Shown piece after piece: positions 4,695 through 47,682 of a stretch of DNA of 48,686 bases. The number at the start of each line of letters is the position of its first letter. The first letter of the stretch is position 1. The stretch covers positions 1 through 48,686 of the forward strand of contig JALHPI010000003.1 of NCBI GenBank assembly GCA_022842585.1, in the 5' to 3' direction. A model generated the notes under the pieces. It was not told where the DNA came from. It did no database searches and saw nothing but the letters and a program-made list of their open reading frames with translations. A program made the position numbers and the translations under genes. Source of the DNA: Minisyncoccota bacterium. GTDB taxonomy: Bacteria; Patescibacteriota; Minisyncoccia; Phycocordibacterales; Phycocordibacteraceae.

Positions 4695-5110
4695 TGCGAA
4701 AAGTATTTCTTGCCGGAGGCGTACTTGTGCTCGCAGGGATACTCGGACTTTTCGCACTCAATCACCCGTCGTACTCGCTTGCGCATATTGAAATCGCCGA
4801 TACGCCCTTCGCGCGTGAACAAGGACTTTCCGGCAGAACTGAGATATCGGAAGACTACGGCATGCTGTTCATTTTTCCCGAAAAGGGCGACTACGGGTTT
4901 TGGATGAAAGACATGAAGGTACCTATCGACGTATTCTGGATTGCCGATGATGGAACAATCGTGGGCATCGAGCACGAGCTCAGCCCCGACACCTACCCGG
5001 AAGCGGTGCATCCACCTCTGCCGGTACGCTACGTGCTTGAGACGAAGGCGGGGACTGGAGCGGCGCGCGGATGGGTGGTAGGTACGACCCTTGCACTTCC
5101 TCTTCGTTAA
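4694..5110 (+). CDS. DUF192 family protein
   Basis: ADTPFAREQGLSGR..MLFIFPEKGDYGFWMKDMKVPIDVFWI. Confidence 0.85.
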   Translation: MRKVFLAGGVLVLAGILGLFALNHPSYSLAHIEIADTPFAREQGLSGRTEISEDYGMLFIFPEKGDYGFWMKDMKVPIDVFWIADDGTIVGIEHELSPDTYPEAVHPPLPVRYVLETKAGTGAARGWVVGTTLALPLR

Positions 5111-5118
5111 ACCTGTGG

Positions 5119-5124
5119 TATAAT
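5119..5124 (+). promoter_or_regulatory. -10 box TATAAT of rnpB
   Basis: TGTGGTATAAT 6 nt upstream of the RNase P P1 helix. Confidence 0.65.
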
Positions 5125-5151
5125 TAAGTCGTGCTGGTACAGGCAGTCGCC

Positions 5152-5273
5152 CAGCCCCACTTTTACAGCGCGAAAATTTATTTATCGCCATAGTTGCGAT
5201 AGAAAAATTTCGAACGGGAAAAATTGTCTTGCAGACAATTTTTCCAAAGGATCGTTCTGTAAAAGTGGGGCTG
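5152..5273 (+). mobile_element. CAGCCCC palindromic element copy G1, inside rnpB (P3 position)
   Basis: Perfect terminal IR CAGCCCCACTTTTACAG/CTGTAAAAGTGGGGCTG; two inner hairpins. Confidence 0.8.
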
Positions 5274-5293
5274 GGAGGAAAGTCCGAACACAG

Positions 5294-5420
5294 CCCAGCC
5301 CCACTTTTACGGTGCGAAATTCTACCCATCAACAACTTGATAGTAGAAGAAATTTCGAACGTGAAATGTAGTCTGAAAGACTACATTTCCGAATAATCGT
5401 TCTGTAAAAGTGGGGCTGGG
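5294..5420 (+). mobile_element. CAGCCCC palindromic element copy G2, inside rnpB
   Basis: Perfect terminal IR CCCAGCCCCACTTTTAC/GTAAAAGTGGGGCTGGG; same inner two-hairpin layout as G1. Confidence 0.8.
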
Positions 5421-5591
5421 AGCAGGGTAGCGGGTAACTCCCGTCCGCCGTAAGGCGCGAGGTGCGAACAGAGACGTTCCTAAGCGAAAGCGCGGGAACA
5501 CCCTCCGAATCCGCAAGGAATACGGGGGTGAGCCTGAAGGGTAACCTACAGGCTGAAACGGCAAAATCCTTACCTCTGTGCAAGGCCGTGT

Positions 5592-5896
5592 CCAGCCCCA
5601 GTTTTAGGTACAATGAGCCTATGTTCTCAGTTTATGTAATCCAGCACGACTCTACTAAAGAGATTTATATTGGATTTACAAGCAATCTGCGAAGACGGCT
5701 CATTGAACACCAATCCCGTGGCAATACGTCGACGAAGCGGAAAGTGGGCAAATGGCATCTGATATACGCCGAAGCGTATCGCGCAGAAGCTGATGCTAGG
5801 CTCCGTGAACGTCGACTGAAAAGCCACGGGAGCGGGAAACAAGGGTTAATCAAGCGTATAAAGGCTAGTTTGCTTGATACCTAAAACTGGGGCTGG
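5592..5896 (+). mobile_element. CCAGCCCC element copy G3 with GIY-YIG ORF, inside rnpB (P15-P17 region)
   Basis: Perfect 19 bp terminal IR CCAGCCCCAGTTTTAGGTA/TACCTAAAACTGGGGCTGG flanking an ORF. Confidence 0.85.
5621..5884 (+). CDS. GIY-YIG nuclease family protein
   Basis: MFSVYVIQHDSTKEIYIGFTSNLRRRLIEHQ...; stop codon TAA lies in the right terminal repeat. Confidence 0.9.
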   Translation: MFSVYVIQHDSTKEIYIGFTSNLRRRLIEHQSRGNTSTKRKVGKWHLIYAEAYRAEADARLRERRLKSHGSGKQGLIKRIKASLLDT

Positions 5897-5990
5897 AAGT
5901 GCCGCTTGAGGCCGTCGGCAACGGCGGTCCTAGATAAATGACTGTCCAACGACAGAATTCGGCTTATCGGACCAGCACGTCAAATGCGAT

Positions 5991-6020
5991 ACACCCGCCT
6001 CACGGCGGGTGTTCGCTTTT
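5991..6020 (+). terminator. rnpB intrinsic terminator
   Basis: ACACCCGCC-tcac-GGCGGGTGT followed by TCGCTTTT. Confidence 0.75.
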
Positions 6021-6114
6021 CTATATCCACTGTATTTCCTGGCACAGCTCCTATTGACGGATATCTCATGGGGTATACTTGACCCATTACCAACGGGCAC
6101 TTTCAAGGACATAT

Positions 6115-13631: not shown

Positions 13632-13706
13632 GCCGCTATAGCTCAATGGATAGAGCATCTCACTCCTAACGAGACGATGTAGGTTCGATTCCTGCTGGCG
13701 GCACCA
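13632..13706 (+). tRNA. tRNA-Arg(CCT), CCA encoded
   Basis: GCCGCTA/TGGCGGC, anticodon loop CTCCTAA, T-arm AGGTTCGATTCCT. Confidence 0.92.
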
Positions 13707-47576: not shown

Positions 47577-47682
47577 CCCAGCCCCACTTTCCAACATGAC
47601 AACTTTTTATGTCGTTTTAAGTTTAAAACTCGGAAACCGTTCTTTCGGTAGTAGAACGACGTATGTGGAAAGTGGAGCTGGG
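47577..47682 (+). mobile_element. CAGCCCC palindromic element copy G4, upstream of gyrA
   Basis: CCCAGCCCCACTTTCC..GGAAAGTGGAGCTGGG terminal IR, inner GTTTTAAGTTTAAAAC. Confidence 0.75.

Follow-up and report, generated by a model that had tools for sequence, protein, structure and literature searches.

The only RNase P RNA gene (rnpB) found in the genome under study (G000) has probably been invaded by very small mobile elements of a single family, which sit as inserts at hairpin sites and include one full copy that encodes a nuclease. RNase P RNA is an essential ribozyme that trims tRNAs, and some of its parts here appear to come from mobile DNA. This reading builds on the anatomy of the gene, on the recurrence of such inserts across the order, on nuclease residency in rnpB that arose at least three times, on sites that are occupied in some genomes and hold short hairpins in others, and on ends that the inserts have in common with dispersed nuclease elements. 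The gene lies in a stretch of 48,686 nucleotides from a Minisyncoccota bacterium, which is called the window (Table 1). As an earlier note on this DNA had claimed, inspection of the sequence gives the full set of class A landmarks in the correct order, and the best boundaries of the three inserts (5151-5274, 5295-5419, and 5592-5896) lie within 1 nt of the figures given there. Against the Rfam model RF00010 the intact gene matches in pieces only, with 49.0 and 23.8 bits, below the cut-off of 100. The comparison with an RNase P model that the note had asked for was made with a profile of rnpB from 45 insert-poor relatives: the excised 298-nt core gives a single match of 205 bits, whereas the intact gene is matched piecewise, with 130, 67, and 18 bits. 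The gene thus belongs to the bacterial class A RNase P RNAs, and its core is recoverable as one RNA once the inserts are removed. A second intact rnpB, which the note had named as evidence against its interpretation, was searched for and not found in the 657-kb, 95.6%-complete assembly. Covariance models gave no match to a group I or group II intron family up to E 1 over positions 5000-6100, which agrees with the proposal that the inserts are independent of introns.

Table 1. Features of rnpB, its inserts, and a related palindrome in the window.
Feature	Position	Strand	Description
rnpB, class A RNase P RNA gene, P1 to P1	5130..5979	+	298-nt core and three inserts; RF00010 pieces, core profile match, landmarks
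Insert 1, P3 position	5151..5274	+	124-nt ORF-less palindromic element; ends CCAGCCCCACTTTTA / TAAAAGTGGGGCTGG; three-way-junction fold
Conserved core segment CRI (GAGGAAAGTCCGAACA)	5275..5290	+	between inserts 1 and 2
Insert 2, J5/7 between P5 and P7 5' strands	5295..5419	+	125-nt ORF-less copy
Insert 3, P15 position	5591..5897	+	GIY-YIG-coding element; 20-bp perfect terminal inverted repeats
ORF, 87 aa, GIY-YIG nuclease P0001	5621..5884	+	PF01541 E 1.2e-13; TAA stop inside 3' terminal repeat
Dispersed ORF-less intergenic palindrome	47577..47682	+	related ends CCCAGCCCCACTTTCC / GGAAAGTGGAGCTGGG

All three inserts start with CCAGCCCCA[C/G]TTTTA and finish with its reverse complement, and the 9-mer CCAGCCCCA occurs 10 times in the window, compared to 0.23 expected occurrences. 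The 305 nt of insert 3 are bounded by perfect 20-bp arms (5591-5610 and 5878-5897), and inserts 1 and 2 are identical at 94 of 124 aligned positions. The stems are near-perfect over about 18-20 bp, and the fold energies of inserts 1, 2, and 3 (-63.3, -61.3, and -132.8 kcal/mol) lie far below those of dinucleotide shuffles (z -11.2, -11.0, and -10.0). The repeats and the fold scores support the earlier description of palindromic inserts with common inverted-repeat ends that extend peripheral helices, and all three are indeed palindromes; however, insert 3 is more than that, as it is a coding GIY-YIG element. Further ORF-less palindrome copies are located on contigs C16 and C19 of this genome. 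Terminal inverted repeats are therefore common to coding and non-coding copies, as expected for a DNA transposon and its MITEs. Visual inspection of insert 3 and of the dispersed copies read revealed no target-site duplication. Similarly, no transposition event was observed between near-identical genomes, and the comparison made is one of occupied with short-hairpin sites between species.

The reading frame of P0001, which is absent from the earlier note, spans from one terminal repeat of insert 3 into the other. P0001 matches PF01541 with 51.6 bits (cut-off 22.6; domain over residues 2-69) and contains the invariant residues Y5, Y16, G18, R26, and E63, so that profile and signature residues place it in the GIY-YIG nuclease family. 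SLX1 proteins are cellular nucleases for branched DNA, and stand-alone bacterial genes encode the UPF0213 proteins. By profile, the solved chains nearest to P0001 are UPF0213 proteins and SLX1, with I-TevI far behind, and the predicted structure, which is of moderate confidence (mean pLDDT 76), gives the same order. P0001 does not qualify as an I-TevI-type homing endonuclease, since it consists of essentially the catalytic domain only and lies outside any intron; the NCBIfam intron endonuclease model gives 19.4 bits against a cut-off of 56.05. A -10-like TACAAT is present just upstream of the P0001 ATG, and a 5/6 match to TATAAT lies inside the terminal repeat in 11 of 26 elements, with 5.2 expected, which is suggestive of a promoter within the terminal repeat. 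This genome contains a second small GIY-YIG gene (G000:C5:36560-36778), which has no terminal repeats and is probably an ordinary UPF0213-type host gene. As this is the only other such gene and a Y1 transposase (PF01797, Y1_Tnp) is absent from the assembly, the gene in rnpB is the only inverted-repeat GIY-YIG element seen in the assembly.

The best homologs of P0001 are found in two genomes of the same genus, G022 (57% identical) and G002 (55%), and both are located inside rnpB at the same P15 site, in elements with the same terminal repeats as insert 3. At P3, where insert 1 sits, both genomes contain a CCAGC-type palindrome, and at the position of insert 2 (J5/7) they have ordinary hairpins. 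Repeats are easily misassembled, and it seems that the contig comes from a draft assembly, but that the assembly of a metagenomic contig pasted repeats into rnpB is hardly conceivable, because the arrangement at P3 and P15 is present in the separate assemblies of G002 and G022, and inserts 1 and 2 differ at 30 positions. Between the rnpB-resident ORFs of G002 and G022, dN is 0.087 and dS 1.23, and the nuclease gene in rnpB has therefore been under purifying selection. In the ORF of G022 (L054), an in-frame TGA stands at a position where the other ORFs invariably have tryptophan; a single in-frame TGA occurs in several inverted-repeat GIY-YIG ORFs (L054, L083, and L088) and probably represents decay.

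Altogether, a GIY-YIG ORF inside rnpB is present in six genomes, always in sense orientation. It is located at P15 in G000, G002, G022, G053, and G146, and at P3 in G048; the latter three genomes belong to other families of the same order. The terminal repeats of the P15 elements of G053 and G146 differ from those of insert 3, and the rnpB of G053 passes the RF00010 cut-off with 117 bits with its 281-nt coding insert in place. In the nuclease protein tree, residency in rnpB requires five changes, at least three of which are forced by supported branches, so that residency has originated at least three times; L098, a nuclease element outside rnpB, falls between G053 and G146. Two nuclease lineages are found at one and the same site, P15, in five genomes, as would be expected if a GIY-YIG homing endonuclease gene copied itself into empty P15 alleles and the ORF-less palindromes were unrelated to it. 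This kind of homing is nevertheless quite unlikely, as the G048 copy sits at P3, nuclease elements with the same ends are found outside rnpB (L098), the protein is nearly the catalytic domain alone and only marginally resembles I-TevI, being closest to UPF0213 and SLX1, and ends are common to the nuclease elements and ORF-less inserts far above chance, as the survey of the order shows.

For this survey 138 genomes were drawn evenly across the order; the CRI motif was found in 120 of them, and 112 rnpB genes could be segmented. Palindromic inserts of at least 62 nt at P3, J5/7, P15, or P19 are present in at least 36 of the 112 genes, two or more of them in at least 11 and three or more in at least 6; these counts are lower bounds, since some segments could not be parsed. 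The median segment lengths, with same-genus extras included, are 33 nt for P3, 36 for J5/7, 26 for P15, 25 for P18, and 27 for P19, and enlargement of P18 is very rare (1 of 79). One repeat family is also found at two sites of the same rnpB in G104, G113, and G054. The case described in the earlier note is thus no isolated oddity but one of many in an order across which rnpB is colonised in this way, with three more genomes carrying two copies of one family of terminal inverted repeats. Among 76 rnpB palindromes, same-genus extras included, 33 have an end that also occurs in a GIY-YIG element elsewhere, compared to 1.35 for shuffled ends. Other palindrome families in rnpB (GCCAATTTTG.., CTCTGGA..) match no GIY-YIG element ends in the set; such non-matching families occur in G017, G037, G043, G054, G062, G064, G071, G117, G124, and G151. 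One assembly, G131, contains two different rnpB genes (G131:C3:7361 and G131:C17:403), due either to contamination or to a real duplicate.

In relatives, P3, J5/7, and P15 are short hairpins that naturally vary in length, and the inserts might thus have arisen by lineage-specific growth of native RNase P helices with no mobile element involved. The location of the inserts at such helices fits this idea, but it is very improbable: one insert contains an ORF under purifying selection, copies exist elsewhere in the genome, the same site is occupied by different repeat families in different genomes, and the inserts have ends in common with nuclease elements. Native helices conserved in all relatives, which would have contradicted the earlier note, are not what is seen, as relatives show short hairpins only at these sites. 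Some short hairpins look like remnants of elements (G080, G260, G006, G077, and G031). P15 of G080 retains CAGTTTTAGGTA...ACCTAAAACTG without an ORF, and P3 of G260 retains the ends of the G048 element; the search for remnants gave 6 matches vs. 1.0 expected, one of which is AT-rich and unconvincing.

The element family is not restricted to rnpB. Most of 58 homologous nuclease loci screened have inverted repeats of 12-26 bp immediately flanking the ORF, which fall into several end families, and the inverted-repeat nuclease elements span about 276-328 bp. ORF-less palindromes with ends like those of nuclease elements are also present in some genomes. A scan of contigs with the single protein mainly retrieved relatives from Bacteroidota, most of which lack strong inverted repeats close by, and it retrieved no named CPR record from this order; a search of viral contigs gave two partial matches only. 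In a WOR-3 bacterium record (L159), 15-bp inverted repeats (TCACCCCGCACTTTT) accompany a GIY-YIG gene, and inverted-repeat GIY-YIG elements may therefore exist outside this order.

Stems that were preserved solely as DNA palindromes would be expected to show G-U and A-C mismatches at equal frequency on the RNA strand. Across 58 inserts in rnpB, however, 101 G-U compare with 55 A-C mismatches, and 29 inserts have more G-U but only 4 more A-C, counts in which related genomes are not independent. Dispersed nuclease elements have no such bias (6 vs. 6). The G-U excess supports folding of the inserts as part of the RNA, although strand-biased C-to-T mutation could contribute to it. That each insert folds on its own, as the earlier note had it, holds for their palindromic nature, but the inserts need not fold independently: in the minimum-energy fold of the full-length RNA, insert 1 pairs with insert 2, and the CRI segment is enclosed by them. 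This fold has -387 kcal/mol and the local folds, summed up as separate folds, about -379 kcal/mol, so that both are nearly isoenergetic. With a gap of about 8 of 387 kcal/mol, local folding during transcription is plausible, and co-transcriptional folding should favor the local hairpins.

A helix in the RNA can also be a target for cleavage. The 23S rRNA intervening sequences (IVS) are hairpin-closed inserts that are cut by RNase III and sometimes contain a small ORF. Since an RNase III gene is encoded in this genome, cutting of this type without ligation is the main rival explanation: RNase III would cut the stems, the inserts would leave, and RNase P would be a nicked four-piece RNA held together by its helices. 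The near-perfect insert stems of about 18-20 bp suit this enzyme's presence, and IVS-type inserts are suspected in CPR rRNA (PMC11270868), whereas the G-U preference indicates a helix and says nothing on cutting. We regard this outcome as unlikely. The inserts of G000 resemble IVS as hairpin-closed inserts in a structured RNA, but the protein of IVS is 23S_rRNA_IVP and the protein here is a GIY-YIG nuclease.

We therefore return to colonisation by a mobile element. The shared ends, the recurrence across the order, and the several origins argue that a small mobile element has repeatedly colonised an essential ribozyme, with no intron involved. Insert 3 would be the full element of about 305 bp, with two 20-bp terminal inverted repeats and a UPF0213/SLX1-type nuclease gene filling the space between them, and inserts 1 and 2 would be ORF-less relatives with its ends. 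As the inserts sit where relatives have short variable hairpins, the terminal repeats most likely pair up as long helices after transcription. These helices would prolong the native stems, so that the catalytic core could still form without splicing, and the inserts may stay in the mature, working RNase P RNA. The nuclease could act on a hairpin or cruciform formed by the ends of its own element, and might thereby move coding copies and, in trans, the ORF-less ones. Residence in an essential single-copy gene would protect the element against deletion, and once the ORF is lost its ends could persist as ordinary RNase P hairpins. More tentatively, and with somewhat less confidence than doubt, we propose a new class of minimal transposable elements (~300 bp) whose sole enzyme may be a structure-specific SLX1/UPF0213-like GIY-YIG nuclease working on its own end hairpins, which may land recurrently in ribozyme loops and turn into an RNase P helix upon ORF loss.

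The earlier note knew of no precedent for one element present three times in rnpB, but related cases exist. The rnpB and tmRNA genes of Rickettsia contain Rickettsia palindromic elements (RPE; Ogata et al., 2002, cited in PMC2229807). They likewise are palindromic repeats within the same essential ribozyme gene and are presumed to be tolerated (PMC2229807). That source describes no nuclease gene for RPE, whereas here one member encodes a GIY-YIG nuclease, three family members reside in one gene, and fixed sites are invaded recurrently across the order. The 16S and 23S rRNA genes of CPR carry non-intron GIY-YIG insertion sequences, which are reported from less conserved regions, most of them at the top or base of stem-loops (PMC11270868). 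They share with insert 3 a GIY-YIG ORF in a non-intron insert, but the text of that paper names no inverted repeats, palindromes, or RNase P, in contrast to the terminal repeats, ORF-less relatives, and rnpB location described here. As in REP/RAYT palindromes and MITEs (PMC3733652, PMC10969869), short palindromes are possibly moved by a separately encoded enzyme; unlike in REP/RAYT, where Y1_Tnp would be required in the assembly, the candidate enzyme is a GIY-YIG nuclease inside the terminal repeats. UPF0213 (YhbQ) and SLX1 are the closest solved relatives of the encoded protein, but the inverted-repeat element described here carries this domain as its sole cargo. The fungal mitochondrial double-hairpin elements are also small, potentially mobile hairpin elements, but they are mitochondrial and have no ORF, unlike the P0001-type element (PMC10085805). 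GIY-YIG elements with terminal repeats in rnpB are not described in the open-access literature searched, which leaves most subscription papers outside, and RNase P RNA was not mentioned in the open-access papers listed with CPR terms in a non-exhaustive check.

Mobile DNA other than introns can thus probably inhabit an essential structured RNA, with ends that would fold into helices at tolerant hairpins, which offers a possible origin for the variable peripheral helices of RNase P RNA. It also points to a compact family of GIY-YIG inverted-repeat elements that is biochemically testable. In 138 of 297 genomes rnpB passes the Rfam cut-off, and such inserts may partly explain the lower scores in many of the others.

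The tmRNA gene was considered as a second target and rejected: it passes the cut-off in 33 of 39 genomes, and the matches listed are of ordinary length (about 370-438 nt). In G007:C39, G017:C5, and G024:C1 the tmRNA gene is followed, about 145-190 bp downstream and on its strand, by a small GIY-YIG gene, which is perhaps a conserved host gene neighborhood. ValRS was discarded as a marker of species distance, as it is confounded by probable gene transfer. Finally, only one of the seven tRNA genes in the window (tRNA-Arg, 13632-13706) encodes the 3' CCA, and we conjecture that such scarce CCA encoding may relax the CCA-contact role of P15.
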